Source of the DNA: an uncultured Planctomycetota bacterium
GTDB lineage: Bacteria > Planctomycetota > UBA1135 > GCA-002686595
Direction of reading: 5' to 3'
Length of the DNA: 48,565 nt
Assembly (NCBI GenBank): GCA_903892045.1
Contig: CAITGX010000159.1
Location: 1 to 48,565, forward strand
Positions 8,026 through 47,075 of this stretch are shown in pieces; the first letter of the stretch is position 1, and each line of letters starts with the position of its first letter. The translations under genes and the position numbers were made by a program. The notes beneath the pieces are model-generated. The model saw nothing but the letters and a program-made list of their open reading frames with translations, ran no database searches and was not told the origin of the DNA.

Positions 8026-10393
<2,368 letters not shown>

Positions 10394-10397
<4 letters not shown>

Positions 10398-11479
10398 GGC
10401 GCGCTCTCGCCCTCGGCGCGCAGGATCGCGGCGTCGACGCCGATCGCTGCGCAGCCCTCGGCGGTGATCATGCGACCGCGGCTGGTGCGCTCGAGGAAGC
10501 CGCAGCGCAGGAGGTGCGGCTCGAAGACTTCTTCGACCGTGTCCTCGGCCTCGCCGATCGCGGCCGCGAGCGTCTTGAGGCCGACGGGGCGGGCACCGTT
10601 GCGCGCGAGCACGGCGAGGATGCGGCGGTCCGTGTCCTCGAGCCCGAACTCGTCGACGCCCATGCGACGCAGCGCCTCGACGGCGTGCGCGGGCTCGGCG
10701 CGCGCGGCACCGGAGACCTGCACGAGGTCGCGTACGCGGCGCAGGAAGCGGTTGGCGATGCGCGGGGTGCCGCGGCTGCGCTCGGCGATCGCGCGCGCGG
10801 CCGCGGGCGAGATCGGCACCTCGAGGATGCGCGCCGAGCGCTCGAGGATGGCGACGAGGTCCTCGGCCGGGTAGGGCGAGAGGCGCTCGAGCAAGCCGAA
10901 GCGGCCGCGGAACGGCGCGGAGAGCAGGCCTTCGCGCGTCGTGGCGCCGACGAGCACGAAGCGCTCGAGCTTGAGCGGCAGGACGCGCGCGTTGGGGCCC
11001 TGGTCGAGGGTCAGGTCGACCGCGTAGTCCTCCATCGCGGAGTACAGGTACTCCTCGACGGCGGCGGGCACGCGGTGGATCTCGTCGATGAAGAGCACGT
11101 CGCCGCGCTTCAGCTGGGTGAGGATGCCGACGAGGTCGCGCGCGCGCTCGAGCGCCGGGCCGGTGGTGGAATGCAAGGTCGTGCCGAGCTCGATCGCGAC
11201 GAGCTTGGCGAGGCTGGTCTTGCCGAGGCCCGGGGGCCCGGACAGGAGCACGTGGTCGGGGGTGTCCTTGCGTGCCCGCGCGGCGGCGATGGCCACGCGC
11301 AGGTTCTCGAGCGTCTGGCGCTGGCCCACGAACTCGTCGAAGCGCTGGGGGCGCAGGGTGTTCTCGAACTCGAGCTCGGCTGCGCCCGGGGCGGTGCCGA
11401 GCAGGGCCTCGAGGCTCTCCGTGCGCAGCCCGTGGAACACGGACCCGCGGCCAGCCTCCGGACGCCCCTCTTCGCTCAT
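10394..11479 (-). CDS. ruvB: Holliday junction branch migration helicase RuvB
   Basis: RuvB is the AAA+ ring motor that, with RuvA, drives branch migration of Holliday junctions. The protein is 361 aa. The Walker A motif is 'GPPGLGKTS' (about 81-89), Walker B is 'LFIDEIHR', sensor 1 is 'LVGATTREG', and 'SRGTPRIANRFLRRVRD' carries the sensor-2 arginine. A C-terminal winged helix contains 'FLERTSRGR'. ATG 11479 gives the best N-terminus, with a TAGGCT element 8 bases upstream. It is the first gene of the ruvB-SpoIID-tgt operon. In many genomes ruvB sits with ruvA, ruvC or queA/tgt; here only tgt is retained, and no ruvA or ruvC is visible. Confidence 0.96.
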
Positions 11480-11880: not shown

Positions 11881-14800
11881 ATGCGTCGTCCCCTCCACTG
11901 GTCGATTGCCCTCGCACCGTTCGTGCTCGTCGCTTGCAGCGGCGGCTCTGGCTCCTCGTCGGGGGGGAACCTCGACCTGCGCGAGGTCTCCAACGGCTTC
12001 GGCCTGATGCTGCCCTACCAGGTACGCAAGGCCGATGCCCTCGGCAACCCGGGCACCGAAGTGGTGCTGATCCGCTCGATGGCGGACCTGACGGGCAACG
12101 TCACGCCGCTCAACCCGGTGCTGCCGGTCACCGAGTGGCCGGTCGAGGCGCGCCTGCCCAACGGCGACTCGGGCAACCACTACCTGTACGCCGAGTTCAG
12201 CCAGCCGATCGATGTCGCGAGCGTGCTCGACTCGGCCTCGACGGGCCAGTCGAACTACGGCCTCGTCGGAACGATCACGGTGCTCGCGCTCGACCCGGGC
12301 ACGGGCCTCTCGGTGCCGGTCGCCGGCCGGGCCTTCATCGACGGTCAGAGCTACGCGCGCCCGGACCCCAACAATCCGGCGCAGCTCGTGTTCGAGCGCT
12401 GGGTGCAGCTCGACGCCCAAGGCACGCCGCGCGCCACCGCGCTCGACATCGACGGCGATGGCCAGCCCGAGGGCCTCGGCTTCCCCGGTACCCAGACGGC
12501 CGTGGGCTTCGCGGGCGCCTCGAAGCTCGTGAGCCCGAACACGTTCGTGTTCGTCGTCGACAGCGACAACGACCTCTCGACCCACGAGCAGTTCCCGGCC
12601 AACCGCCAGATCAAGCTGCGCGCGACGCGCGCGGTGAAGTCCCAGAACGGCAAGCTGCTCGCCCAGCAGGTGGTCGCAAGCTGCACCGTCGGCAGCGACG
12701 CGATTGCGCCCGAAGTCGCGACGACGCCGCCGCCCAACGCGATCCCGGTCACGAGCCCGAGCCTCGGCGACGACCAGATCGATCCGCAGACGCCGATCCT
12801 CGTCGAGTTCACCGAGCCGCTGCAGCCCACCAGCGTCGGTTCGTTCCCGACCGTCGTCCCGCCGATCGTGAGCCCTGCGATCACGCTCGTCTTCGGACCC
12901 ACGAACCAGCAGACGCAGGTGCCCTACACCTGCGTGCCCGAGTCGGTCTACGACTTCTCGCGCTGGATCCTGACGCCCGCGTTCCCCTTCCCCGGCAACG
13001 GTCCCGCGACGCAGGCCTGCGGCACGTTCAATCGCGTCACGGTCAATTTCGTGGCCCAGCAGGTGCTCGACCTCGCGGGCAACACCAACTCGCTGGCGGC
13101 CACCACCGATTTCACCACGGGTGAGGGACCGGGCCTCGTCAACGCGCCAGTCGCCCCCGAGGCCGTCGTCGTCGGCCGCGTCGGCGCGTCACCGGGCCTG
13201 TCCGTGCTCGACCTCAACGGCTTCGGCCAGTCCACGGGTGACCCGCAGTTCGACTTCAGCTACCAGACCTTCCCCAAGGGCTGGTCGAACTTCCCCAACA
13301 ACCCGAACCTGATCCAGTACGGGCCGACGATGTACCCGCCGCTGTTCCCCGGCACCTGCACGGTGGACGGTGGTTCGGCGGGCGCGTTCACGCTGACCAA
13401 GGACTCGTCCCTCGACGACCTGCTGGTGCGTCCGCCGGTGATCACGTCGGTGGGGGAGATGGCCCTCGGCCAGTCGCTCGACCTCGTCTACCACAACGGC
13501 AAGGACTCGACGGGCTGCCGCTTCAACGGCGGCAACTTCTGTTCGATCAACGGCAAGAAGGTCATCCGCACGTCGTTCCAGACCAGCCAGACGATCGGAC
13601 CGCCGCTGCCCAACCAGGCCCCGGCCGCGATCGTCCCCGGCGGCGCCAATCCGATCTCGTTCGCTCCGCACCCCAACCCGCCGCCGCTGCGCTTCCCGCC
13701 CCTGTGCCTGCAGCCCTTCATCGGCGGCGAGGAGCCGACCTCGATCTACACCGCCACCGCGCCGCCCGCGGGCCTGGGCTTCGCCAACCTGCTCGTGCCC
13801 GGCAACCCGCTGCGCGAGTTCGACCGTCCGCCGACGGGCATCGGGGCCCAGTTCCAGAACGCCTTCTTCGAGGGACCGGACCGCGTGACGCTGACGAGCT
13901 CGGGCCCGTGCCTCGAGCACCAGTACCGCCAGCAGATCGGTCACTTCCTCTACATGCTCGACCGCGCGCGCCGCGAGGTCGTGGTGTTCAACTCCAACCG
14001 CATGACCGTGCTCGATCGCATCCCCTGCGCGGATCCGACCGACATCACGATGGCGCCGAACCTCGACTTCATCGCCATCTCGAACCAGAACGCGGACACG
14101 GTCACGTTCATCGACACCAACCCTGCCTCGGCGACGTTCCACAAGGTCGTCAAGGTCACGCAGGTCGGCCGTGGACCGCGCGGCATCGAGTGGGATCCGG
14201 GCAACGAGGACATCCTCGTGTGCAACGAGGAAGACGGCTCGGTCTCGATCCTCTCCGCGTTCACGTTCGACGTGCGCAAGACGATCTTCGGCAACCTCGA
14301 GCGTCCGTTCGACGTCGTGATCCTCCAGCGCCAGATCGGCTTCGGCTACAACCGCGCCGTCTACTTCGCGTGGATCCTCAACCGCAACGGCGACTTGACG
14401 ATCTTCGAGTCGGGTCCCAACGGCGTGAACGGCTGGGGCTACGACGACACGGTCGGCGTCGCGCCCTTCAACTTCGAGAACCCGAAGAAGCTCGCGCTCA
14501 ACTACGAGTTCGTCGGCGGGTCGGTGTGGATCCTCCACGAGAACCCGCTGAGCGAGACCGGCACGCCGACGGGCCAGATCGGCGGCGCGGTCACGCGCGT
14601 CGACATCGACAGCGGCGCCTTCGGCCTGCTGCCCCTCAACGGCTTCCAAGGTCAGGTCAACCCGCAGTTCCGCAACATGAGCCTCAAGGTCCGCACCTCG
14701 ATCGGGCCCAACGAGCTCACCGGCGTGCCTGTCGACCTGTGCTTCGACGAGCTCAACAACCTCGGGGCGTCCCAGAACACGCAGTCGAACTTCGGCGTGG

Positions 14801-15033
14801 GTCAGGGCATCCTGATCAACGGCAAGTCCGTGATCCGCAACGCCACCACGGCGGCGATCTTCCCCGACTACATGTTCCTCGCGGTTCCGACCTCGAGCGA
14901 AGGTCCGGGGGTGATCGACGTGATCTCGATGACGAGCGGCTACACCCGCTTCGACACGGACAAGTACCTGACGGGGGTGCAGTCGGTGCCGTGCTCCGGC
15001 GCGCGCTTCCTGTGCACGTTCTTCCGCCACTAG
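11881..15033 (+). CDS. Giant secreted lipoprotein 1 (Ig-like and beta-propeller-like regions)
   Basis: This is a 1050-aa lipoprotein. Its signal 'WSIALAPFVLVAC' has the lipidated Cys at 19, followed by a Gly/Ser linker. The N-terminal domain opens with 'EVSNGFGLMLPYQVRKAD'. Acidic loops such as 'DIDGDGQPEG' and 'DSDNDLSTHEQ' look calcium-binding. Around 270-420 a segment ('PEVATTPPPNAIPV', 'ILVEFTEPLQPTSVGS') resembles bacterial Ig-like Big_5 domains. From about 685 on, repeated blades ('NLDFIAISNQNADTVTFIDTN', 'GRGPRGIEWDPGNEDILVC', 'RNGDLTIFESG') resemble a YVTN-type beta-propeller. It is a close paralogue of the next gene over its whole length. I took ATG 11881 for the signal peptide; the track start runs 200 codons too far upstream. 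A surface-exposed binding or structural role is likely, but the function is unknown. Confidence 0.85.
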   Translation: MRRPLHWSIALAPFVLVACSGGSGSSSGGNLDLREVSNGFGLMLPYQVRKADALGNPGTEVVLIRSMADLTGNVTPLNPVLPVTEWPVEARLPNGDSGNHYLYAEFSQPIDVASVLDSASTGQSNYGLVGTITVLALDPGTGLSVPVAGRAFIDGQSYARPDPNNPAQLVFERWVQLDAQGTPRATALDIDGDGQPEGLGFPGTQTAVGFAGASKLVSPNTFVFVVDSDNDLSTHEQFPANRQIKLRATRAVKSQNGKLLAQQVVASCTVGSDAIAPEVATTPPPNAIPVTSPSLGDDQIDPQTPILVEFTEPLQPTSVGSFPTVVPPIVSPAITLVFGPTNQQTQVPYTCVPESVYDFSRWILTPAFPFPGNGPATQACGTFNRVTVNFVAQQVLDLAGNTNSLAATTDFTTGEGPGLVNAPVAPEAVVVGRVGASPGLSVLDLNGFGQSTGDPQFDFSYQTFPKGWSNFPNNPNLIQYGPTMYPPLFPGTCTVDGGSAGAFTLTKDSSLDDLLVRPPVITSVGEMALGQSLDLVYHNGKDSTGCRFNGGNFCSINGKKVIRTSFQTSQTIGPPLPNQAPAAIVPGGANPISFAPHPNPPPLRFPPLCLQPFIGGEEPTSIYTATAPPAGLGFANLLVPGNPLREFDRPPTGIGAQFQNAFFEGPDRVTLTSSGPCLEHQYRQQIGHFLYMLDRARREVVVFNSNRMTVLDRIPCADPTDITMAPNLDFIAISNQNADTVTFIDTNPASATFHKVVKVTQVGRGPRGIEWDPGNEDILVCNEEDGSVSILSAFTFDVRKTIFGNLERPFDVVILQRQIGFGYNRAVYFAWILNRNGDLTIFESGPNGVNGWGYDDTVGVAPFNFENPKKLALNYEFVGGSVWILHENPLSETGTPTGQIGGAVTRVDIDSGAFGLLPLNGFQGQVNPQFRNMSLKVRTSIGPNELTGVPVDLCFDELNNLGASQNTQSNFGVGQGILINGKSVIRNATTAAIFPDYMFLAVPTSSEGPGVIDVISMTSGYTRFDTDKYLTGVQSVPCSGARFLCTFFRH

Positions 15034-15374
15034 AGCGCACGCTCGGCTGCTCGAAAGCGCACAGCGAGCCGCGCTCGGCTCTCGTTCTCCGGGCCCTGCC
15101 CTCCGCCCCACACCGGGTGGGGGCGGGGCCCGGGTCCTTGGGACTTGCTCGCCCGGGAATGCGGCTTGGCCGTCAGGGCTGGCACGGTGCTTGAGGGACG
15201 TGGATCGGCACGGCGTCTGTCGCGCTCCGGAGCCCCGCGGGGCAGGGGGCGCCGCGCCGCAGTCGGATGGAAAATTTGCGTGCATCCTCGGCGGGGTGGC
15301 TGACTAGACTACGCACCCCTTTTCGTGCGCGGCCGCGAGCGGCCCCCCTACAGACAGCGAGCGAACCTGATCCC
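15034..15374. other. Intergenic region between the paired giant lipoproteins
   Basis: These 341 bases have no supported ORF. After the first stop come hairpins GAGCCG-CGCT-CGGCTC (15066-15081) and CCGCCCC/GGGGCGG (15103-15126). Closer to the second gene lie an AT-richer patch ('GGAAAATTT' near 15269), a possible -10 'TAGACT' (15304-15309), and two small leader hairpins: CGCAC/GTGCG around the 'CCCTTTTC' loop, and GGCCGC-GA-GCGGCC (15331-15344). The second gene therefore probably has its own promoter and a structured leader of about 60 bases. Confidence 0.45.
15103..15126 (+). terminator. Hairpin downstream of giant lipoprotein 1
   Basis: A perfect 7-bp stem, CCGCCCC / GGGGCGG, has a 10-base loop and lies 70 bases after the stop, preceded by a second hairpin at 15066-15081. 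No T-tract follows, so efficiency is uncertain. Confidence 0.35.
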
Positions 15375-18300
15375 ATGAAGCGACAGCTGGCATGGACCTT
15401 GGCGGCGTCCCCGGTGGTGTTCCTCTTTGCCTCCTGCTCTGGCGGAGGCAGTGGATCCTCGGGCTCGGCCTCCCAGATGGACCTCCTTGAGGTGTCCAAC
15501 GGCTTCGGCCTGATGCTGCCCCATCAGGTGCGCAAGGCGGACGCCAACGGCAACCCGACGGCCGAGCTGGTGCTGATCCGCAGCTTCGATGACCTGACGG
15601 GCAACGTGACCCCGCAGAACCCGATTCTGCCGGTCACCGAATGGCCCACCGAGGCGCGCCTGCCCAACGGCGATACGGGCAACCACTTCATCTACGCCGA
15701 GTTCTCCCAGCCGCTGGACATCGACTCCGTCCTCGATCCCTCGCCCGCGGGTCAGGCCAACTCGGGCCTGATCGGTCCGATCACGGTGCTGGCGCTCGAT
15801 CCGACCTCCGGCGAGTCGACTCCGATCCCCGGTCGCGCGTTCATCGGTGGCCGCACCTACGCGGGCATCGATCCCAATACGCCGGGGCGCCTGCTGTTCG
15901 AGCGCTGGGTCGAGCTCGACGTCAATGGCAAGCCCATCGCGGGCTCCGTCGACCTCGATGGCAACGGCGTCCCGGATGGCAAGGGCTTCCCCGGCACGGA
16001 GAGCACGATCGGCTTCACCGGCGCTTCGAAGCTCGTCAGCGACACCACCTTCGTGTTCGTCGTGGACTCCGACGGCGACCTCTCGACCCACGAACGCTTC
16101 CCGTCCGATCGTCAGGTGCGCCTGCGCGCCACGACGGCGCTTCGCGCGGTGAACCAGAACCAGCTGCAGCGTCAGGTCGTCGCGAGCGCGACGGTCGGGG
16201 CCGACGGGATCGCGCCGGAAGTGCTCACGACTCCGGCCCCCAACTCGATTCCGCTCACCAGCCCGAGCTTCGGCGACGTCGACGTCGATCCGCTGACCAC
16301 CATCCAGGTCGAGTTCACCGAGCCCGTCCAGCCGACGAGCGTCGGCTCCTTCCCGACCGTCCGCCTGCCGATCGTCAGCCCGGCGATCACGCTCGTGTTC
16401 GGGCCGGCGAACCAGCAGACGCAGGTGCCGTACACCTGCATGCCGCTCTCGGTCTTCGACCTCTCGAAGTGGGTGCTGACGACCCAGTTCGGCTTCCCCG
16501 GCAACGGTCCGGCCTCCCAGGGCTGCGGCACCTTCAACCGCGTCACGATGACGTTCGTGCCGGCGCAGGTGCGCGACTTCTCGGCCAATCGGAACACGCT
16601 CGGCGCGACGACCGACTTCACCACGGGTGAGGGGCCGGGCCTCGTCAACGCGCCGGTCGCCCCCGAGGCGATCCTCGTCGGTCGCGTGGGCGCGGTCCCC
16701 GGCATCTCGGTGATCGACCTCAACGGCTTCGGCCAGTCGACGGGCGATCCGCAGTTCGACTTCAGCTACCAGACCTTCCCCAAGGGCTGGTCGAACTTCC
16801 CCAACAACCCGAACCTGATCCAGTACGGACCGACGATGTTCCCGCCGCTCTTCCCCGGCACCTGCACGGTGGACGGCGGCTCGGCGGGCGCGTTCTCGCT
16901 GACGCGGGACTCGTCGCTCAACGACCTGCTCGTGCGCGCCCCTCTGATCACGTCCGTGGGCGAGATGGCGCTCGGCAACCCGCTCGACACCGTGTACCAC
17001 AACGGCAAGGACTCGACCGGTTGCCGCTCGGGCGGCGGCAGCTTCTGCGCCGTGACGGGCAAGAAGCTGGTGCAGACGGCGTTCCAGACCAACCAGACCC
17101 TCGGCCCGCCGACCGGCAACCAGCTCCCGGCCGCCCAGGTGCCCGGCGGTGCCAACCCGATCTCCTTCGCCCCGCACCCCAACCCGCCGGTGCTGCGCTT
17201 CCCGCCGCTGTGCCTGCAGCCCTTCATCGGCGGCGAGGAGCCGACCTCGAAGTTCACCATCGACCCGCCGCCGCCGGCTGGCAAGGGTCTGGGCTTCGGC
17301 AACCTGCTCGTGCCCGGCGACGCCCTGCGCGAGTTCTCCAACCCGCCCTCGGGCACGCTGGCCCAGTTCCAGAACGCCTTCTTCGAGGGCCCGGACCGTC
17401 CGATCGAGCTGACCTCGGGCGCCTGCCTCTCGTACATGTACCGCCAGCAGATCGGGCACTTCCTGTACATGCTCGACCGCGCGCGCCGCGAGGTCGTGGT
17501 GTTCAACTCCAACCGCATGACGGTCATCGAACGCATCCCCTGCGCCGACCCGACCGACATGACGATGGCGCCCAACCTCGACTTCATCGCGATCTCGAAC
17601 CAGAACGCCGACACGGTCACGTTCATCGACATCGACCCCTCGTCGTCGACCTTCCACCAGATCGTCAAGGTCACGCCGGTCGGTCGCGGCCCGCGCGGTC
17701 TCGAGTGGGATCCGGGCAACGAGGACATCCTCGTCTGCAACGAAGAGGACGGGTCGCTCTCGATCATCTCGGCGTTCACGTTCAATGTCCGCAAGACGGT
17801 CTTCGGCAACCTCAACGCGCCGTTCGACGTCGTGATCTCCCAGCGCCAGCAGGGCTTCGGCTTCCAGCGCAACGTGTACTTCGGCTGGATCCTCAACCGC
17901 AACGGCGACCTGACCCTGTTCGAGTCCGGTCCCAACGGCGTCAACGGTTGGGGTTACGACGACACGATCGGCGTCTCGCCGTTCTCGTTCGCGAACCCCA
18001 AGAAGATCGCGCTGAACTACGACTACCTCGGTGGTTCGGTGTGGATCGTGCACGAGAACCCGCTCACGATCGAGGGCGCTCCGAGCGGCCAGATCGGTGG
18101 CGCGATCACGCGCATCGACGCGGCCAGCGGCTCCTTCGGCGTCCAGCCGCTGGGTGGCTTTGCCGGCTTCATCAACCCGCAGTTCCGCGACCTGAGCCTC
18201 AAGGTCAAGACCTCGATCGGTCCCAACCAGCTGACGGGCGTGCCGGTCGACATCGTCTTCGACGAGCTCAACAACCTCGGTGCCTCGGCCAACTTCACCA

Positions 18301-18557
18301 CGCCCTACGGCGTCGGCTCGCCGATCCTCATCAACGGCAAGGCCGCGGTCCGTACGGGTGGTGGCGGTGCGACGCAGACCGTGTTCCCCGACTACATGTT
18401 CGCGGCCATCCCCAACTCGAGCGAGGGCCCGGGGGTCATCGACGTGATCGCGCTCACGAGCGGCTTCACGCGCTTCGACACGGACAAGTACCTGTCGGGC
18501 ACGCAGTCGATCCCCTGCGCCGGTGCGCGCTTCCTCGGCTCGTACTTCCGTCACTAG
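15375..18557 (+). CDS. Giant secreted lipoprotein 2 (paralogue of lipoprotein 1)
   Basis: This is a 1060-aa lipoprotein with the signal 'AASPVVFLFASC' (lipid Cys21) and a Gly/Ser linker. It aligns with the preceding gene from 'EVSNGFGLMLPHQVRKAD' to the last residues ('RFDTDKYLSGTQSIPCAGARFL'), with long identical blocks such as 'GQSTGDPQFDFSYQTFPKGW' and 'GGANPISFAPHPNPP'. It shares the acidic loops ('DLDGNGVPDGKG', 'DSDGDLSTHERF'), the Ig-like segment ('TIQVEFTEPVQPTSVGS') and the propeller-like blades. Conserved cysteines across both copies suggest disulfides and extracytoplasmic folding. The strong C/G-ending codon choice is typical of a highly expressed gene in this genome and creates a long antisense ORF. 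A strong terminator follows. The function is unknown. Confidence 0.85.
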   Translation: MKRQLAWTLAASPVVFLFASCSGGGSGSSGSASQMDLLEVSNGFGLMLPHQVRKADANGNPTAELVLIRSFDDLTGNVTPQNPILPVTEWPTEARLPNGDTGNHFIYAEFSQPLDIDSVLDPSPAGQANSGLIGPITVLALDPTSGESTPIPGRAFIGGRTYAGIDPNTPGRLLFERWVELDVNGKPIAGSVDLDGNGVPDGKGFPGTESTIGFTGASKLVSDTTFVFVVDSDGDLSTHERFPSDRQVRLRATTALRAVNQNQLQRQVVASATVGADGIAPEVLTTPAPNSIPLTSPSFGDVDVDPLTTIQVEFTEPVQPTSVGSFPTVRLPIVSPAITLVFGPANQQTQVPYTCMPLSVFDLSKWVLTTQFGFPGNGPASQGCGTFNRVTMTFVPAQVRDFSANRNTLGATTDFTTGEGPGLVNAPVAPEAILVGRVGAVPGISVIDLNGFGQSTGDPQFDFSYQTFPKGWSNFPNNPNLIQYGPTMFPPLFPGTCTVDGGSAGAFSLTRDSSLNDLLVRAPLITSVGEMALGNPLDTVYHNGKDSTGCRSGGGSFCAVTGKKLVQTAFQTNQTLGPPTGNQLPAAQVPGGANPISFAPHPNPPVLRFPPLCLQPFIGGEEPTSKFTIDPPPPAGKGLGFGNLLVPGDALREFSNPPSGTLAQFQNAFFEGPDRPIELTSGACLSYMYRQQIGHFLYMLDRARREVVVFNSNRMTVIERIPCADPTDMTMAPNLDFIAISNQNADTVTFIDIDPSSSTFHQIVKVTPVGRGPRGLEWDPGNEDILVCNEEDGSLSIISAFTFNVRKTVFGNLNAPFDVVISQRQQGFGFQRNVYFGWILNRNGDLTLFESGPNGVNGWGYDDTIGVSPFSFANPKKIALNYDYLGGSVWIVHENPLTIEGAPSGQIGGAITRIDAASGSFGVQPLGGFAGFINPQFRDLSLKVKTSIGPNQLTGVPVDIVFDELNNLGASANFTTPYGVGSPILINGKAAVRTGGGGATQTVFPDYMFAAIPNSSEGPGVIDVIALTSGFTRFDTDKYLSGTQSIPCAGARFLGSYFRH

Positions 18558-18594: not shown

Positions 18595-18636
18595 CCGCGC
18601 CCGTCTGGCCCCGCGTCAGGCGGGCGCGGTCTCTTT
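18595..18636 (+). terminator. Strong intrinsic terminator after the lipoprotein pair
   Basis: The stem is 13 bp, CCGCGCCCGTCTG with CAGGCGGGCGCGG (one G-U pair), with a 9-base loop, followed by 'TCTCTTT'. A smaller perfect hairpin CCGGCG-GCCCG-CGCCGG (18567-18583) precedes it. It insulates the menaquinone cluster from the lipoprotein genes. Confidence 0.75.
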
Positions 18637-18692: not shown

Positions 18693-19379
18693 ATGCCCGA
18701 CCCGCGCGAAGTGCGCTCGATGTTCAGCCGCATTGCCGGTCGCTATGACCTGCTCAACCGGCTCCTGTCCGCCGGAATCGACCGTCGCTGGCGAGACCGC
18801 ACCGTGCGCCGCGCGGGGCCTCTGCAGGGGCGCCTGGTCGTGGATGCGTGCTGCGGCACTGGCGACCTGGCGCTCGAGTTTGCGGCTGCGGGCGCACGCG
18901 TCGTCGGCGTCGACTTCACGCCCGAGATGCTGCGGCACGCGGGCCCCAAGGCGAGCGCGCGCTCGCTTCCGGGCGTGTTCGTGCACGGTGACGCGATGCG
19001 CTTGCCGGTCGCCACGGGCGCTGCCGACGTGTGCAGCGTGGCGTTCGGCGTTCGCAACTTGGCTGACCCGGACCTGGGCCTGCGCGAGTTGGCGCGGGTG
19101 CTGAAGCCGGGAGGAACGCTGTTCGTGCTCGAGTTCAGCCCGCCGCCGCCGGGCCTGCTCGGCACGCTGTATCGCTTCTACTTCCTGAAGGTGCTGCCTT
19201 GGATCGGAGGCTTCATCTCCGGGGACCGCGAGGCCTATCGCTACTTGCCGCGCACCGTGTCCGCCTGGCCGGAGCCCGACGCGTTCCGGCGCCAGCTCGA
19301 AGGTGCGGGTCTCGTCAACTGCGGCTACGAGCGACTGACCTTCGGCATCGCGAGCCTGCACTGGGGAACGCGACCGTGA
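18693..19379 (+). CDS. ubiE: UbiE/MenG-type quinone C-methyltransferase
   Basis: This is a SAM-dependent methyltransferase (228 aa) that carries out the last C-methylation of menaquinone or ubiquinone. 'MFSRIAGRYDLLNRLLSAGIDRRWR' is the UbiE N-terminal signature. 'VVDACCGTGDLALEFA' is the SAM-binding motif I. 'SVAFGVRNLADPDLGLRELARVLKPGG' and 'FYFLKVLPWIGGFISGDREAYRYLP' are the two classic UbiE blocks. It heads an operon with a CPBP protease, ubiX and ubiA. With UbiX- and UbiA-like partners but no menA-F genes in view, demethylmenaquinone from the futalosine route is the likely substrate; this is an inference. Confidence 0.92.
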   Translation: MPDPREVRSMFSRIAGRYDLLNRLLSAGIDRRWRDRTVRRAGPLQGRLVVDACCGTGDLALEFAAAGARVVGVDFTPEMLRHAGPKASARSLPGVFVHGDAMRLPVATGAADVCSVAFGVRNLADPDLGLRELARVLKPGGTLFVLEFSPPPPGLLGTLYRFYFLKVLPWIGGFISGDREAYRYLPRTVSAWPEPDAFRRQLEGAGLVNCGYERLTFGIASLHWGTRP

Positions 19380-20191
19380 GCGCCGCGGCTGCGAGCGCGC
19401 GCGCACGCGCGGAGGTTGCGACGCCCACGCTCGCACCGACACGCAGCCTCTCGGTGGGGCTCGTGGCGATGGTGCCGCTGTTCGCGTGCTACGAGTTCGC
19501 GTTGCTCGCCGAGCCTCGCTCCGCCCGCAACTTCGGCGAGCTGTCCCTCGGGCTGCTGTTGCGTCCGTTTGGAACGCACGCGGACGCCGCACGCGCGATC
19601 GTGCTGCTGCTCGGCAGTCTCGTCGCGTTCCTCGTCGCGTCTCGCCGCAGCCGCGCGAGCCTTGGCTCCGACGTGGCGCGCGTGTTTCTCGAGGGTGTGC
19701 TCGCGGCGTGCGTGCTCGGGCCGCTGATGGTGATCGTCCTGCGCTCGCTGTCCGGTTACCTGCCGGTGCTCGATGCGTCGTGGGATCCGGGGCAGCCGGG
19801 GCCGGGGCTGGTCGACACGGCGCTCGTGTTCGGTGCGGGCGCATGGGAAGAACTCGTGTTCCGCGTGGGGCTGTACTCGTTCGTGTACTGGCTCGCGCTG
19901 CGCTTCCTCGCGGCCTTCGACGTCGGCGAACGCGTGGCGCGCGCGAGCGCCGAGGTGCTCGGCCTGTCGCTGTCGTCGCTGCTGTTCGCTGCAGCGCACT
20001 TCCAGCCCGTGCTGCGCCACTTCGGGCCCGGCGGTCGGCCCTTCGACCCAGCGCTCTTCACCTGGCTCGCGCTCGGCGGCGTGGCCATGGGACTGCTCTT
20101 TCGCCTGCGCGGTCCGGGCGTCGCTGCCTGGACCCACGGGCTCTTCAATGTCGCCCTGTGGATCGGTCTCGATCCGGACGTGATCTGGTGA
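19376..20191 (+). CDS. CPBP-family (Abi/CAAX-type) intramembrane metalloprotease
   Basis: This is a 271-aa polytopic membrane protein of the CPBP family, related to Rce1-type prenyl-protein proteases. The catalytic pattern is intact: EExxxR as 'WEELVFRVGLY' (E158, E159, R163), 'LFAAAHF' (H208), and the third histidine in 'AWTHGLFNVAL' (H254). Several hydrophobic segments surround them. The GTG start overlaps the ubiE stop by 4 bases (GTGA), and the stop overlaps the ubiX start in the same way. Its tight coupling inside a quinone cluster is unusual; the family is better known for protein processing, bacteriocin immunity and signalling. The substrate is unknown. The track start at 19199 would run back into ubiE. 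Confidence 0.85.
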   Translation: MSAAAASARARAEVATPTLAPTRSLSVGLVAMVPLFACYEFALLAEPRSARNFGELSLGLLLRPFGTHADAARAIVLLLGSLVAFLVASRRSRASLGSDVARVFLEGVLAACVLGPLMVIVLRSLSGYLPVLDASWDPGQPGPGLVDTALVFGAGAWEELVFRVGLYSFVYWLALRFLAAFDVGERVARASAEVLGLSLSSLLFAAAHFQPVLRHFGPGGRPFDPALFTWLALGGVAMGLLFRLRGPGVAAWTHGLFNVALWIGLDPDVIW

Positions 20192-20865
20192 GTCGCTACT
20201 TCGTCGGAATCACGGGTGGCAGCGGCCATCCCTACGCGATCGCGCTGATCCGCGCGCTGCTCGAGAACGGTCAGGACGTCGACACGTCGGTGACCGAGGC
20301 GGGCATCAAGGTGCTGCGGCACGAGGTCGGGATCGACCCCGGCGCGGAAGGGGCGAACCTCGGGCCCGCGCTCGCCGCCCACTTCCGCAAGGACTGGGGC
20401 GAGCGCCTGCGCGCGTTCCCGACCAAGGCGATCGAGGCGCCGCCTTCCTCGGGCACGGCGCTGACCGGAGGCGTGATCGTCTGCCCGTGCAGCATGGGCA
20501 CGCTGGCGCGCGTGTCGGTCGGCTTCAGCTCGAACCTGGTCGAGCGCGCGGTCGATGTGGCGCTCAAGGAGCGGCGCACGCTCGTGCTCGTCACGCGCGA
20601 GGCGCCCTATTCGCCGATCCACCTCGAGAACATGCTGCGCATGGCGCGCCTCGGCGCGGTGATCCTGCCGGCGAGCCCGGGCTTCTACCACCGGCCGCGC
20701 TCCCTCGAGGACCTCGTCGATCACGTGGTCGGCAAGATCCTCGACACGCTGCGCGTGCCGCACTCGGTCGGGGCGCGCTGGAAGGGCTTGCCGCCGCCGG
20801 ACGAGGACGCCGGCACGGGCGTGCCGCCGCCGCGCGATCCGCTCGCTCCGGGGGAACGCGCGTGA
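20188..20865 (+). CDS. ubiX: Flavin prenyltransferase UbiX
   Basis: UbiX attaches a dimethylallyl group to FMN to make prenyl-FMN, the cofactor of UbiD-type decarboxylases. The protein is 225 aa. 'VGITGGSGHPYAIALI' is the flavin-binding N-terminus, and 'VCPCSMGTLARVSVGFSSNLVERA' and 'LVTREAPYSPIHLENML' form the active site. 'LPASPGFYHRP' and 'VGKILDTL' are family landmarks. An extra Pro-rich tail of about 25 residues ('PPPDEDAGTGVPPPRD') follows. GTG 20188 overlaps the CPBP stop. The partner UbiD is not in the window. In futalosine-route bacteria the UbiX/UbiD/UbiA-like set acts on dihydroxy-naphthoate intermediates. Confidence 0.93.
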   Translation: MSRYFVGITGGSGHPYAIALIRALLENGQDVDTSVTEAGIKVLRHEVGIDPGAEGANLGPALAAHFRKDWGERLRAFPTKAIEAPPSSGTALTGGVIVCPCSMGTLARVSVGFSSNLVERAVDVALKERRTLVLVTREAPYSPIHLENMLRMARLGAVILPASPGFYHRPRSLEDLVDHVVGKILDTLRVPHSVGARWKGLPPPDEDAGTGVPPPRDPLAPGERA

Positions 20866-21728
20866 GCGGGGGCGTGGCGGCGTGGGGCCGCCTCGTCGCA
20901 TTCCGGCACTCGATCTTCGCGTTGCCCTTCGCGCTGCAGGGTGCTTGGCTCGCCGCGAACGGCGTGCCGGCGTGGACGAGCCTCGCGTGGATCGTGGTGT
21001 GTGCCGTCGCGGCGCGCACAGCCGCCATGGGCTTCAATCGTTGGCTCGATCGTCGCATCGATGCGCGCAATCCGCGCACGAAGGGGCGCGAGCTGCCCGC
21101 GGGCGTGCTTTCGGCGTCGGCTGTGCTCGCGCTCGTCGTGCTCTCGAGCGCCGTGTTCGTCGCCGCCGCATGGGCGCTCTCGCCCTTGTGCGGCAAGCTC
21201 GCGCTGCCCGTACTCGCGATCCTGTTCTTCTACAGCTTCACCAAGCGCTTCACGTGGCTCGCGCACGGCTTCCTCGGTCTCGCGCTGGGCATTGCGCCGC
21301 CAGCCGCGTGGCTCGCGATCGCCGGCGGCTTCGAGGGCGACTGGCGCACGCCGCTGGTGCTCGGCAGTGCGGTGCTGTGCTGGGTCGCGGGCTTCGACCT
21401 CATCTACGCCTGTCAGGACCGCGAGTTCGATGCCGCCGAGGGCCTGCACTCGATCCCGGCGCGCTTTGGAGCCGCGCGGGCGCTCGCGATGGCGCGCGTG
21501 CTGCACATCGTGACCGTGCTGCTCCTGTTCGTCGTCTGGCAGCGCGCGGACCTCGGCTGGATCTACCTCGCCGCGATCGCGCTCGCCGCGCTCCTGCTCG
21601 TCTGGGAGCATCGGCTGGTCTCGGCCGATGACCTCAGCCGCGTGGACATGGCATTTTTCACGCTCAACGGCTGGGTGGGGGTCGGATTGTTCGCCGGGCT
21701 GGCGCTGGACCGGGCCCTTCTGGCGTAA
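20862..21728 (+). CDS. ubiA: UbiA-family prenyltransferase (4-hydroxybenzoate / menaquinone type)
   Basis: This is an integral membrane aromatic prenyltransferase (288 aa, about eight or nine hydrophobic helices). The first Asp-rich motif is 'FNRWLDRRIDARNPRTKGRELP' (NxxxDxxxD) and the second is 'FDLIYACQDREFDAAEGLHSIP'. Both bind the Mg-diphosphate of the prenyl donor. The sequence is of the subgroup seen with UbiX- and UbiD-like proteins in futalosine (MqnP) clusters. GTG 20862 overlaps the ubiX stop by 4 bases, with 'GGGGGAA' just upstream as a possible Shine-Dalgarno. It is the last gene of the coupled quinone block; holA follows after 12 bases. Confidence 0.92.
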   Translation: MSGGVAAWGRLVAFRHSIFALPFALQGAWLAANGVPAWTSLAWIVVCAVAARTAAMGFNRWLDRRIDARNPRTKGRELPAGVLSASAVLALVVLSSAVFVAAAWALSPLCGKLALPVLAILFFYSFTKRFTWLAHGFLGLALGIAPPAAWLAIAGGFEGDWRTPLVLGSAVLCWVAGFDLIYACQDREFDAAEGLHSIPARFGAARALAMARVLHIVTVLLLFVVWQRADLGWIYLAAIALAALLLVWEHRLVSADDLSRVDMAFFTLNGWVGVGLFAGLALDRALLA

Positions 21729-21740: not shown

Positions 21741-22847
21741 ATGGCGAAGGAAGCGGATCCGCGCGCGGAGTGGTCGGGCTTCGTGACCGCGCTGCGCGGC
21801 TCGAAGGGGCTGGCGCCTGGCTACATGCTGCGCGGCGCGGAGCGCTGGTTCCGCGATCGCGCGGTGGACGCGCTGATCGAGCGGGCACGAGCGCTCGAGC
21901 ACGAGATCTGCCGTCATGACTCGAAGGATCCCGAGTTCAAGGCACAGTCGCTGCTCGACGACCTGTCGAGCACGGCGATGTTCGCCTCGCTGCGCCTCGT
22001 CGTGATCAGCGAGCCCGATGCGCTGCTCAAGAAGTCGGGCAGCTCCGAGTCCGCGCTCGCGCGCGCCATCCGTGGCTTCGTCGCGCGCCGTGGCGGCACG
22101 GTCGTGCTCGTCGGCGATGGACTGCGCGCGGACCTTGCCGTCGTGAAGGAACTCCAGTCTGCAGGTGGCGAAATGCGTTCCTTCCGCAAGCTGTACGAGC
22201 GGCCGCCGCCGTGGGCGCGCAACGCCGACCCGCGCAGCACGGAGCTGGTCGAGTGGCTGCTCGCTCGCTCGCGCGAGCGCGAGGTCAAGCTCTCCACGGA
22301 CCAGGCCGTGCTGCTGGCGCACGCACAAGGCAACGACCTCTCGGCGCTCGACGACCAGCTGGCGGCGCTCGCTGTGGGAGGCGCGGAAGCGCTCGCGCGC
22401 CTCTCGTCCACCGCGGCAGGCTCTCCCGGCGATGTCTGCGACGCGTTGCTCGCGGGCGAGACACCGCGCACGGTGCAGGCCGTCGAGACGCTCTTTTCGG
22501 GCGGCATGCGGCGCGAGAAGGACGGCGGGCGCGAGACGGACCAGAACGCGCTCGTGGCGATCCTGCTCGGCTACCTGCGGCCCAAGGTGCGTTCAGGACT
22601 CGCTGCGGCGGAGTTCGTGCGCGGCGGCATGACGCCGGAGGACGCGGCGGGGGAAGTCGGGATCACCGCCTTCGACAAGACGTTGCGCGCGGCGATCGCC
22701 AGCCGGCCGCCGGAGCAGTGGCGCAGCATGCTCGACGACCTGCTCGAGATCGAGCGGCGCTCGCGACAGGGCGGCGAGGTCGACGGCACCGACTTCGTGC
22801 GCCTCGCGTTGCGCTGGTCGCGCAAGGCCGCGGCCCGCGCGCGCTAG
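21741..22847 (+). CDS. holA: DNA polymerase III subunit delta
   Basis: HolA is the subunit of the clamp loader that opens the beta sliding clamp. At 368 aa it has the usual length. It has the expected layout of a diverged AAA+ fold. 'GYMLRGAERWFRDRAVDALI' is the delta N-terminal 'yll.GeE.fl...a.d.l' segment, 'LLDDLSSTAMFASLRLVVIS' is the 'l...l.t.slF..rrlV.i' block, and 'LSTDQAVLLAHAQGNDLSALDDQLAAL' is the conserved 'lGnDl..l..eleKL' segment. The C-terminal helical collar contains 'ALVAILLGYLRPKV'. Identification rests on the order of these blocks and not on a single diagnostic motif. mutL follows 11 bases later. Confidence 0.82.
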   Translation: MAKEADPRAEWSGFVTALRGSKGLAPGYMLRGAERWFRDRAVDALIERARALEHEICRHDSKDPEFKAQSLLDDLSSTAMFASLRLVVISEPDALLKKSGSSESALARAIRGFVARRGGTVVLVGDGLRADLAVVKELQSAGGEMRSFRKLYERPPPWARNADPRSTELVEWLLARSREREVKLSTDQAVLLAHAQGNDLSALDDQLAALAVGGAEALARLSSTAAGSPGDVCDALLAGETPRTVQAVETLFSGGMRREKDGGRETDQNALVAILLGYLRPKVRSGLAAAEFVRGGMTPEDAAGEVGITAFDKTLRAAIASRPPEQWRSMLDDLLEIERRSRQGGEVDGTDFVRLALRWSRKAAARAR

Positions 22848-34995: not shown

Positions 34996-37071
34996 GTGCC
35001 GACGCGCGTGCGCAAGCGCGACGGTCGGGAGGTGCCCTTCGACGCGCGCAAGATCGATGCGGCCGTCTGCAAGGCCCTCGACGCGGTCGGGGAGGTCGAC
35101 CCCGGCTTCGCCGGTGAGATCGCCGGCGTGGTCACGCTCACGCTCGAGGGCCGTTACGGGGCGGACTCGCCGCCGGGCGCGGCGGTGCCGGGCATCGAGG
35201 AGATCCAGGATCTCGTCGAGCAGGCGCTGATCGAGCTCGGCCGTGCCAACGTCGCCAAGGCCTACATCCTCTACCGCGACCGCCGCGCGCGCGCGCGCGA
35301 GGCGCTGTCGGTGCACGACGGCGACGCGGTCGGCAAGCAGCGTGTCGAGGTGCAGGCCAAGGATCGCACCCAGCCGTGGAGCAAGGTGCGCATCGTGGCG
35401 GCGCTCATCAACGAGGCGCAGCTGCCGCGGGAGCTCGCGGAGAAGGTCGCCACGCGCGTCGAGGAGCGCGTGTTCGCCGCGCGCTGGCGGCAGGTCTCGA
35501 CGGCGCTCGTGCGCGAGCTCGTCGACAACGAGCTCCTCGACCTCGGGCTGTCGGCGGCGTTGCGGCGCCAGGTTTCCTACGGCCTGCCGAGCTTCGACCT
35601 GCGCAACGCGCTCGCGCACGAGGACGCGCCGCTCGATCCCGCGCGCGCGGCGCAGGGCGAGGAGCTCGCCGAGCGCGGGATCCACCAGCGCATCGCCGGC
35701 GACGTGCTGCGGCGCTTCGCCCTCAACGAGGTGCTCGGCGAGGAGAGCGCGCGCGCCCATCTCGCGGGCGACCTGCATGTGCTCGACCTCGGCCGCCCGC
35801 AGCAGGCGCTGTGGTGCTCGGTGCCGGCGACGCTGCTGCAGGCCGGCGGGGCGCAGGCCGACGCGCCCTACGACGTCCTCGACGAGCTCGCGCTCGTGGC
35901 GCGCGATGTCGCGCACGGGGTCGTGCTCGAGGATGCCTCGGCGCTGCTCGCGCCGCTGTGCGCGAGCTCGCGCGGGTCGGCGCTCGAGACGTGGTTGCGG
36001 GCGCTGTGCGCGTGCGCCGGTGCGGCCGGTCGCTCGCTCGACCTGCAGGTCGGCGGCGGTGGCGCGCGCTCGCAGGCGGCGACGGATCGCCTGATCGAGG
36101 CCCTCGCGGCGTTGCCGCACGTGGCGCTTCCGCCGCGGCTCTTCATCGATCACTCCGACCTCGCGCGCCGGCTCGAGGACCGTGGGGGGGATCCGGCTTA
36201 TCTCGCTGCGGTGGAAGCGCTGCTGCTCGCCGGGCGGCTGGTCCCGACCTGGGGCACCGACGCGGTGCAGTGCGTCGGGCCGGGCCTGCACCGCCACGCT
36301 CACGAGCGCGCGACGCTCGCCTGCGGCGGCGCGGTCGCGATCAACCTGCCGCGCATCGCGCTGCGCGCGGGACCGTGGCGCGAGGATCGCGTGCTCGAGC
36401 TGCTCTCGGGGGCCGCGACAGCGGCCGTGGATGCGCTCGCGGAGCTGGCGGCCTTCCAGCGGCGCACGCGCGGCTCGCGGCCGGGCGACCTGCGCGGGCG
36501 GCTCGCCTACGCGGTGACGCCCGTCGGCCTGCGCGAGGCGCTCGCGACGCTCGGTGACGGCGACGTGCGACCGGATCAGGGCGCGCGGCTGGTCGGTTTC
36601 CTCGCCGAGGCATTGCAGCGCGCGGGCGATGCCAAGCGGCTCGCCGTCGTGCTCACGCCCTACTTTGGCGAGCAGGCGCGCGCGCGCTTCGCGGAGCTCG
36701 ACGCCGCCTTGCCGCAGCACGCTCAGCGGCTGCTGTTCGGCGAGGCTGCGCCGGCGGCGTCGCGCGCTCCCTACGTCGTCGGTTATCGGCTCTCGCCCGT
36801 GCACGGGCGGACGCCGTGGTCGGCGGAGTCCGTGCTGCTGTCGACTGTCGAGGTCGGAGCGCTGCATCCCCTGCCCGAGGACACTTCGCGCGGCGGTCCG
36901 CTGTCGCTCGTCGAGTCCTGGCGGCGCTTCGATCGCCTGCGCGAGGATTCCGGCGAGCGCGAGCTCGCTCCGCAGTCCTCCGTCGTCACCCAAGAGTCCC
37001 ACCTGTTCGACCCCGAGATCCGCACCCCGGAACCGTCCGCGCGCGAGCGCGCGAGCGGCCCCACCCGCTGA
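34996..37071 (+). CDS. NrdD-like ATP-cone protein lacking the glycyl-radical domain
   Basis: This is a 691-aa protein starting at GTG with a good Shine-Dalgarno (GGAGGG, 8 bases). Residues 1-100 form an ATP cone ('RVRKRDGREVPFDARKIDAAV', 'AKAYILYRDRR'); a second cone-like segment follows (about 115-210, 'STALVRELVDNELLDLGL'). The middle resembles class III reductase: 'ARAHLAGDLHVLDL' (about 252-265; NrdD has 'AHleGdihIHDL'), a lone Cys in 'VQCVGPGLH' (426), and 'INLPRIALRA' (about 449). Near the end, 'STVEVGALHPLPEDTSRGG' resembles the NrdD segment before the C-terminal zinc domain. The protein then stops after a short polar tail. There is no CxxC zinc ribbon and no RVxGY glycyl-radical motif. 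It could be a non-catalytic nucleotide sensor, or half of a split enzyme. It abuts nrdR and smc. Confidence 0.7.
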   Translation: MPTRVRKRDGREVPFDARKIDAAVCKALDAVGEVDPGFAGEIAGVVTLTLEGRYGADSPPGAAVPGIEEIQDLVEQALIELGRANVAKAYILYRDRRARAREALSVHDGDAVGKQRVEVQAKDRTQPWSKVRIVAALINEAQLPRELAEKVATRVEERVFAARWRQVSTALVRELVDNELLDLGLSAALRRQVSYGLPSFDLRNALAHEDAPLDPARAAQGEELAERGIHQRIAGDVLRRFALNEVLGEESARAHLAGDLHVLDLGRPQQALWCSVPATLLQAGGAQADAPYDVLDELALVARDVAHGVVLEDASALLAPLCASSRGSALETWLRALCACAGAAGRSLDLQVGGGGARSQAATDRLIEALAALPHVALPPRLFIDHSDLARRLEDRGGDPAYLAAVEALLLAGRLVPTWGTDAVQCVGPGLHRHAHERATLACGGAVAINLPRIALRAGPWREDRVLELLSGAATAAVDALAELAAFQRRTRGSRPGDLRGRLAYAVTPVGLREALATLGDGDVRPDQGARLVGFLAEALQRAGDAKRLAVVLTPYFGEQARARFAELDAALPQHAQRLLFGEAAPAASRAPYVVGYRLSPVHGRTPWSAESVLLSTVEVGALHPLPEDTSRGGPLSLVESWRRFDRLREDSGERELAPQSSVVTQESHLFDPEIRTPEPSARERASGPTR

Positions 37072-37073
37072 CC

Positions 37074-40000
37074 ATGCGACTGCAACGCCTCGAACTGTTC
37101 GGCTTCAAGTCCTTCGCCGATCGCACGACGCTCAACTTCAACGACGCCTTCACGGGCATCGTCGGACCCAACGGCTGCGGCAAGTCGAACGTGGTCGACG
37201 CCGTGCGCTGGGTGCTCGGCGAGACGCGTCCGACGTCGATGCGCGGCGGCGAGATGACGGACGTGATCTTCAAGGGCTCGGTCTCGCGCCCGCCGATGAA
37301 CGTGGCCGAGGTCACGCTCGTGCTCGACAACACCTGCGGCACGATCGCGCAGCAGGGCTCGGAAGTGGCGATCACGCGCCGCGTGTACCGCTCGGGCGAA
37401 GGCGAGTACCTGATCAACGGCGAGCGCGCGCGCCTGAAGGACGTGCGCGACATGCTGTTCGACACCGGCCTCGGGAGCCGCGGCTACTCGGTGCTCGAGC
37501 AGGGCAAGATCGACGCCGCGCTCTCGGCCAACTCGCTCGACCGCCGCGCGATCTTCGAGGAGGCGGCCGGCATCAGCCGCTACAAGGTCAAGCGCAAGGA
37601 GACGGACGTCAAGCTCAAGCGCGTCGAGGCGGACCTCGTGCGCCTCGACGACGTGCTCAAGGAGCTCGGCAGCCGCGTGCGCTCGCTCAAGATCCAGGCC
37701 GGCAAGGCCGAGCGCTTCGTCGCCGCGCGCGACCTGTGGAAGGGCCAGCGCTCGCGCTACCTGAAGCACCGCCTGCACGAGGGGCGAAGCGCGCTCGCGA
37801 GCCTCTCGGAGCAGATCACGGCGCTCGAGGCGCGCTGCGAGTCGCTCAAGACCTTGCGCGCCGACGGCGAGTCGGACGTCAGCACCCGCGAGCGCGAGCA
37901 GGAGACCATCTCGGCCGAGATCGACCGTCTCTCGGGCGAGATCCGCCGACTCGTCGGCGAGGACAGCGAGTGCGCGGAACGCCAGCGCCAGCTCGAGTCG
38001 CGCGCCGCGGACCTGCGACGCAACTCCGAGGGCGAGGCGCGACGCGCCGAGGAGCTCGGGCGCGTCGTCGAGACGCGCAGCGCGGAGATCGAGGACGTGC
38101 GCACGCGCAAGGCCGCGATCGAGGAGCAGCTCTCGCAGTCGCGCAGCACCGCCGACGGCGAGCAGGTGACCCTGCGCGAAGCCCGCAACACCCAGCGCGA
38201 GCTGCGCGCCAACTGCGAGCGCCAGAACCAGATCGTGCTCTCGCACCTGAACGAGCGCACCGCCGCGCAGAACCTCGAGCGCACGATCGAGCTCTCGCGC
38301 CCGAGCTTGTCGGAGCGCCTGCAGCGCGCGCAGCTGCGCATGGAGGAGTCCGGCCGCGAGGTCGAGGTCCTGCACGGCGACCAGTCGGCCGCCGAAGGTC
38401 GCGTGATCGACGCGCAGAACGACCTCGGCGTGGCCGAGACGACGCTGCGCGACCTGCAGGCCGGCCAGCAGGCGCTCGAGCGCGAGGAGCAGGAGCGTCG
38501 CGCCGCGCGTTCCAAGCACGAGGTCGAGCGCGCGCGCCTCACCAGCCGCATCGACACGCTCAAGGACATGGAGCACGAGCGCTCGAGCCTCGAGGCGGGC
38601 GCGCGCGCGCTGCTCGAGGGCACGCGCCGCGGCCAGGGCCCGTGCGAACCCGCGCAGCTCAAGGGCCTCGTCGCCGACCACCTGCGCACGTCGACGCGCC
38701 TCGCGCGCGCCCTCGACGCGGCGCTCGGACCGGCGGCGCTCGGCCTCGTCACGGAGGATCCCGAGCTCGCCGGTCGCATGCTGCGCTGGCTCTCGGAGCG
38801 CAAGTCCGGCCAGGTGCGCGTGTACGTGCCCGGCGGCATCGGTGTGCGCGAGCAGGGCAAGCGCGACGCCGCGCTCGCGCCCTTCCCGCGTCTGCTCGAC
38901 GAGCTCGAATGCAGCGGCGGCTTCGAGCCGCTGGCGGCGCTGCTCGTCGGCGACGTGCTGGTGGTCGAGGAGCTCGAGCTGGCGATCGCGCTCGTGCGCG
39001 AGCACCCGCAGTGGCGCTTCGTCACGCCCGCGGGCGACCTCGTCAGCGCGGCCGGCGTGTTTGGCGGTCACCGCGAGGTGACGCAGGGTGCCGTCGGTCG
39101 TCGCGCGACCGCCGCGGAGTTCGCGCGCGAGCTCGAGGGCATCGAGAAGGCGATCCGCGAGGAGACGGCCGAGCTCGAGCGCATCGCGGGCGAGCGTCGC
39201 GTGGTGGCCGAGCGCCGCGCGCACGCGCAGTCGGAGTGCGACCGCCGTCGTCAGCAGCTGACGGACGCGCGGGCGCAGGCCCAGACGGCCAAGGCGCGCA
39301 TCGCGGACCTCAGCCGCGTCGCGGGGCAGCTCGCGCGCGAGCACGAGGCGATCCTCGCCGACCAGCGCCGCCTCGACTCGGAGCTCGCTGGCGCGCAGAA
39401 GCGGCATGCGACGGCCCAAGCCAACTTCACGCGCGAGAACGAGAAGCTCGCGGTGCTCGATGCCGAGCGCGTGGCGCTCGAGGCGCGCATCGAGACGCTG
39501 CAGTCGAGCGCCTCTTCGGCGGAGAGCATCGTGATCCGCCAGAACGCCGAGCTCAGCACGCTGCACGCGCGCGTGCGCGACCTCGATCGCGGCCTGTCGG
39601 AGGCCCGTGCCGAGCTCGAGCGCTCGACGCGGCTGTCGCGCGAACATGCGGAGGCCGCCGAGGCCGCGGTCGCCGAGGCCGCGCGCGTGCGCGTGCGCGG
39701 GGACGAGGTGCTCGTCGAGCGCGCGGCGGCCGAGGCGCGCTTCAAGGAACTGCGCGAGGCGGAGTCCGCCGGTCGCGAGGCCGTCAGCGTGTTCCGCGCG
39801 CGCGTCGATGCGGTGACGCGCGAGCTCGAGAGCCTCGCCGGCGAGCTGTCCGAGCGTCGCATGGACGCGCAGAAGATCGAACTCGTCGCCGCGGAGCTCG
39901 TCGTGCGCACGCGCGAGGACCTCGGCATCTCCGAGGCCGAGCTGCTCGAGGGCTTCGAGCCCGAGGCCGAGCTCGCGGAGGCCGGCGCCCTCGACGGGCT

Positions 40001-40835: not shown

Positions 40836-40923
40836 ACGATTCGCTCGCCCGAGGCGGGGGGCGGACCCTCGCCCGGGCGCGGTTCGGACCGGCGCCATGG
40901 ATTCGGCCGGCCACGTGCGCCGA

Positions 40924-40929
40924 TAGGAT
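40924..40929 (+). promoter_or_regulatory. Candidate -10 element (TAGGAT) of the M14-like pair
   Basis: 'gaTAGGAT' lies 10 bases before an in-frame ATG at 40940 and overlaps the first possible ATG at 40928. If it is the true -10, translation would start at 40940. Confidence 0.35.
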
Positions 40930-47072: not shown

Positions 47073-47075
47073 GCC

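Follow-up and report, generated by a model that had tools for sequence, protein, structure and literature searches.

Tandem propeller lipoproteins at a conserved ruvB-ubiE site in a class of Planctomycetota

By profile comparison and predicted structure, the closest solved structures to the two lipoproteins described here are YVTN propellers, namely an archaeal S-layer protein (1l0q), hydrazine synthase beta, Lp49 and BtuG. Lp49 (LIC10793) of Leptospira (3bws) carries a lipobox, an Ig-like domain and a YVTN propeller in the same order as our proteins. We take its Ig-like domain to be N-terminal and its propeller C-terminal; the solved chain presumably comprises about 400 aa with a single Ig-like domain and without a long insert. 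Lp49 has been detected on the surface of live Leptospira cells (PMC2889836). BtuG of Bacteroides (8ptf, 8blw, 8bmx) is a surface lipoprotein for B12 capture with a ligand-binding propeller which partners a TonB-dependent transporter, and BtuB-BtuG complexes have been described (PMC10404256). The archaeal 1l0q is a propeller with a PKD domain. Hydrazine synthase beta (5c2v chain B) has YVTN-type repeats and is also a planctomycete protein.

The window analyzed here is a stretch of 48,565 nucleotides and represents one entire contig of a 4.4-Mb draft genome of an uncultured Planctomycetota bacterium. Two lipoprotein genes, here named copy A (11881..15033, 1050 aa) and copy B (15375..18557, 1060 aa), lie in tandem on the forward strand, and both frames are open throughout. 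Each starts with a type II signal peptide ending in a lipobox cysteine as in bacterial lipoproteins (A: 11881..11937, LVAC at residues 16-19; B: 15375..15437, FASC at residues 18-21; both followed by S). This cysteine was nearly invariant in a 30-member alignment of the phylum (A3). In a global alignment 778 of 1050 aligned positions were identical (74%) from end to end; the nucleotide identity was 79% and reached 98% in the best block of 50 columns. All 11 cysteines of B were also found in A, which has three additional ones. A preliminary description of the sequence had proposed two large lipoproteins, paralogous and in tandem, with shared cysteines, and the comparison bears this out. No further full-length member was found in the genome; a third, weak match consisted of a single YVTN stretch on a different contig. 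Five other genomes of the genus carry the same pair in intact form (six species in all), which rules out an assembly artefact, as the preliminary description had expected. In a sixth further genome, G001, a copy was cut by the contig end, and the parts missing from copies in G001 and G025 were all located at contig ends.

A Foldseek search with the C-terminal model returned 5c2v_B, 1l0q_A, Lp49 (3bws_A) and BtuG2 (8ptf). Lp49 was found at rank 5-6 with an identity of only 11-14% in the alignment and belongs to a different phylum; A and B carry one more Ig-like part plus an insert. The BtuG structures were matched with 11-15% identity. However, their solved chains have no known Ig-like stalk, and no TonB-dependent transporter was recognised among the conserved neighbours of A and B. 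The best profile match was 1l0q (E 1.9e-41), but it was confined to three YVTN-repeat stretches; the FESGP signature, the insert and the Ig-like part of A and B lay outside it. The match to hydrazine synthase beta (profile E 6.8e-22) was confined to a few repeats, and membership was rejected since the scores for NF052340 (22.5 and 17 bits) were far below its cut-off of 560. Lactonase-type N2O reductase (NF052460) was rejected as well: B scored 13.6 bits against a cut-off of 700, and none of its histidines was invariant across the 66 sequences of the phylum alignment, whereas NosZ has conserved His copper ligands. The Pfam family Lactonase (PF10282) exceeded its gathering cut-off of 21.7 with 27.4 and 30.2 bits. 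The match spanned about 85-115 of 344 profile positions and thus not a whole seven-bladed propeller. Only ~100 of 1050 residues resemble these 6-phosphogluconolactonase-type propellers, and A and B differ from them by their lipid anchor and Ig-like stalk. A full-length match to a described family was not obtained, in line with the earlier remark that no such family was recognised for the complete architecture. Literature searches, with most subscription papers outside their scope, did not turn up any account of the family or the locus.

The domain composition is given here for copy B. AlphaFold models built from 18 sequences were of moderate confidence (mean pLDDT 54.6 and 56.9) and recovered two beta-sandwich parts (residues 35-280 and 300-415) and a propeller (~690-1050); the stretch of ~450-690 was not resolved in either model. 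The first part (residues 35-280, 15477..16214; strands with pLDDT mostly 60-86) may be Ig-like, judging from its modelled fold. It contains the acidic loop DSDxDLSTHE, of calcium type, with D231-x-D233-x-D235 conserved throughout the phylum. Loops of this kind had been reported and two are present; conservation of the other one, DIDGDGQPE/DLDGNGVPD, is restricted to the level of lineages. The second Ig-like domain (residues 290-415, 16242..16619) is of the Big_5 type. Pfam Big_5 (PF13205) was detected in 12 of 30 members with a best E of 2.7e-9, while A and B themselves remained below the threshold; the Ig-like segment of the preliminary description thereby gains support from the relatives.

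The propeller module comprises residues 424-1060 (16644..18554), its boundary being placed according to stand-alone relatives that start at ~420. Pfam Lactonase was found in 20/30 members and YncE-like in 12/30; together with the passing Lactonase scores of A and B and the Foldseek matches to YVTN propellers this agrees with the propeller-like blades seen earlier. As the first propeller strands were modelled at residues 431-448, the Cys-rich region of ~240 residues that follows (~450-690, 16722..17444) seems to be inserted into the first blade. Its cysteines C497, C550, C558, C613 and C684 were invariant in the near set (alignment A1) and absent in other classes. The residues E783, R824 and E850 were identical in 66/66 sequences and lie within a signature R..Y..N..FESGP, of which FESGPNG occupies residues 849-855 (17919..17939). 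R824 and the FESGP part are located outside the region matched by profile to solved structures.

The pair had been attributed to a recent or strongly constrained duplication, and only the second half of this alternative holds. Within the genus, orthologues shared 75-92% (A) and 82-93% (B) identity, compared with 71-75% between A and B. Trees built from the whole protein and from the C-terminal half both separated a clade of all A copies from a clade of all B copies, and the single-copy relative G010 branched outside them; the branching was not settled in the fast-evolving N-terminal part. At four-fold degenerate sites the identical fraction was 0.67 between A and B and 0.70-0.71 between orthologues of different species. 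A and B are therefore two old orthologous lines, which had split by duplication no later than the origin of the sampled genus. Since the four-fold divergence of A and B is about equal to that of species orthologues, the long identical blocks reflect constraint and not recency. For the same reason a Nei-Gojobori dS of 0.45 between A and B was discarded as a clock.

The family is core to this planctomycete class and extends to further classes of Planctomycetota. It was present in 60/61 relatives and in 148/154 genomes of the class (52/53 of the high-quality ones). Those relatives that have a name are MAGs, and almost all carry the label Planctomycetota or planctomycete. Outside the class, 29 of the sampled phylum genomes contained the family at E 1e-20, counted with the narrower of two profiles; at this threshold it was not detected in most other families of the phylum. 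Most out-of-class proteins retained lipobox, Ig-like part and propeller at 24-34% identity. Furthermore, several genomes carried short, propeller-only relatives at other sites, whose match begins at residue ~420. Four of them that were placed in the tree formed one clade. Propeller-only relatives at unrelated sites were seen in G010, G030, G015 and G020 (L094, L095, L096 and L097).

The family nearly always occupies one and the same site. In 48 loci its copies are flanked on one side by a divergently oriented ruvB, which is backed by spoIID and tgt, and on the other by ubiE in the same direction as the copies. Within the window the upstream flank on the reverse strand consists of ruvB (10394..11377; Pfam RuvB_N/RuvB_C), a spoIID-like gene (9189..10520; Pfam SpoIID) and tgt (8026..9582; Pfam TGT 1.8e-149, the ORF exceeding the gene), the former two also identified by synteny. 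Downstream, on the forward strand, a ubiE-type methyltransferase gene (18693..19379; Pfam 2.3e-57, synteny) is followed, as in most of these loci, by a CAAX-protease-like gene (19199..20191; Pfam Rce1-like, true start probably further in), a ubiX-type flavoprotein gene (20185..20865; Pfam Flavoprotein) and a ubiA-type prenyltransferase gene (20871..21728; Pfam UbiA), the starts of the latter two being approximate. Of the syntenic loci, 38 belong to the class; the other ten come from outside it, and their ubiE was only 38-51% identical. Many of the remaining loci were cut by contig ends. Copies truly at other sites were G022b, G033b and the short forms, among others, and in G079/G246 the flanks were rearranged. 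An extra copy downstream of ubiE was present in G176, G220, G276 and G256 (L113-L116), placing ubiE between family members.

For comparison, the positions of ruvB and ubiE were determined in 13 genomes of the phylum that have no detectable copy. They were adjacent only in G073 (L132, G073:C20, 3438-10165). Here the order is tgt-spoIID-ruvB|ubiE-ubiX-ubiA with a gap of about 370 bp and no family copy in between. G073 is thus an empty-site control, and the gene order exists without the lipoprotein.

Some further ORFs of the window were noted. A conserved ORF after ubiA (21741-22847), which may be holA-like, was recognisable in many syntenic loci and had no Pfam match. An open frame of 2016 codons (36554-42604) was likewise without a Pfam match, and Pfam identified a PrkA-type kinase gene with a DUF444 gene after it at 45030-48182.

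The number of copies at the ruvB|ubiE site ranged from one to three, and single-copy genomes were common. In the trees, tandem copies were mutual closest relatives in g1, G011/G017/G090, G013, G030, G043, G047, the families f7, f27 and f71, and others. A tree with all first copies constrained together was rejected (AU p 1.3e-43, in a set including two long-branched outgroup pairs), and with it the model of one ancestral duplication free of conversion. The copy position changed at least nine times over a tree of 11 pairs. The trees thus point either to repeated tandem duplication at this site or to copies homogenised by gene conversion. The latter, that is one ancestral duplication with copies kept alike within genomes, concerns the history only and would be compatible with any functional reading. 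We regard it as somewhat unlikely: grouping of copies by genome or genus in many lineages and the nearly identical copies of G043 would fit, but no A/B exchange was visible in the C-terminal half within the genus of the window, and the relatives just outside the genus as well as many other genomes have just one copy at the site. Very similar copies were observed in G043 (L069, 4734-8027 and 10649-14032) and G154 (L126, 5006-8017 and 9757-12681) and may stem from either recent duplication or gene conversion.

The sequences between the genes suggest that A, B and ubiE are separate transcription units. Copy A is followed by a GC-rich hairpin (15088..15134) which resembles a terminator or 3' end and has no U run, and copy B by a terminator-like GC-rich hairpin with a 15-pair stem (18595..18629). 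A strong hairpin 3' of each copy was found in six of six species with differing stem sequences, after copy A at about the same place. Conserved promoter-like blocks precede both B and ubiE; the block upstream of B (15270..15319, TGCATCC ... ACTAGACTACGCACCCC), derived from the six-species alignment, would be a putative promoter. Both hairpins and the block upstream of B lie on the forward strand. An operon with ubiE was unsupported in the genus, a hairpin and a promoter-like block being located between B and ubiE.

As many functions are built on propeller folds, resemblance in fold does not give the role of A and B. We lean towards outer-membrane lipoproteins whose propeller head serves as a binding or scaffold platform, with specialised copies. 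After export and attachment of the lipid at the lipobox cysteine, the proteins would most likely be carried to the outer membrane; this placement we infer, since Lol sorting is not established in these bacteria. The two Ig-like parts, the first with the calcium-type loop, would form the stalk, whereas the propeller with the Cys-rich insert and R824...FESGP would be the working head, a platform for binding or scaffolding rather than a classical enzyme. The manner of working may be similar to that of Lp49 or BtuG. Repeated tandem duplication would have led to one to three copies at ruvB|ubiE. Because single-copy genomes exist, the pair is not obligatory and the copies have most likely become specialised, be it for ligand, partner or expression.

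The invariant, charged E783, R824 and E850 would equally suit an active site, and the head could then be a lipid-anchored enzyme, either lactonase-like or a redox protein akin to hydrazine synthase beta or lactonase-type N2O reductase. The passing Pfam Lactonase score and weak NCBIfam matches to hydrazine synthase beta (28/30) and L-NosZ (17/30) point the same way. However, the name Lactonase does not imply activity, the matches span just one or two YVTN repeats, and A and B score under the curated NCBIfam cut-offs, for the enzyme models by far. Additionally, B has no phylum-invariant His, so that the conserved seven-His copper site is absent, and we consider an enzyme quite improbable. A part of an envelope-assembly machine, like BamB or the accessory BAM lipoproteins, would be universal, vertically inherited and duplicated for diverse clients. 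BamB is an eight-bladed propeller lipoprotein bound to BamA; the Ig-like stalk is, to our knowledge, foreign to it. The near-universal presence in the class, the combination of lipoprotein and propeller and the conserved site would suit such a part. A passage of one report gives as many as 28 paralogous genes of T. immobilis under BamB (PMC8567305), which may be a precedent in the phylum for expanded propeller lipoproteins. Since no bamA was recognised in the examined neighbourhood and most other families of the phylum gave no match at the E 1e-20 threshold, a role of this kind also appears rather improbable.

Finally, A and B, suggested in the preliminary description as possible major surface proteins, might be two subunits of one lattice in an S-layer-like coat, that is major structural surface proteins. 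The archaeal S-layer propeller as best profile match and the calcium-type loop are consistent with this. A and B also match the ribosomal-protein set in codon usage, but ruvB falls into the same range and scores even higher, so that codon usage is not discriminating and high expression could not be derived from it. Single-copy genomes are common, and a lipid anchor on all subunits would, as far as we know, be unusual in a lattice. We therefore hold a coat to be unlikely.

Planctomycete envelopes are unusual and few components of their outer surface are known. A wider reading, tentative and on balance unlikely, would be an undescribed core component of the envelope in this class, an Ig-stalk/propeller lipoprotein which different classes have kept at a single ruvB|ubiE site. 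Parallel tandem duplications of its locus would have built surface complexes of two or three subunits independently from one ancestral protein in different lineages. A class-wide core family, one conserved site and recurrent duplication become visible only from comparison. With its parallel duplications and an empty site as control, the locus is a natural system for asking why one locus keeps doubling, and genomes with one, two or three copies allow the function of the duplicates to be tested by comparison. Near-universal in its class, held at one fixed site and repeatedly duplicated, the family is a strong candidate for a central part of the envelope.
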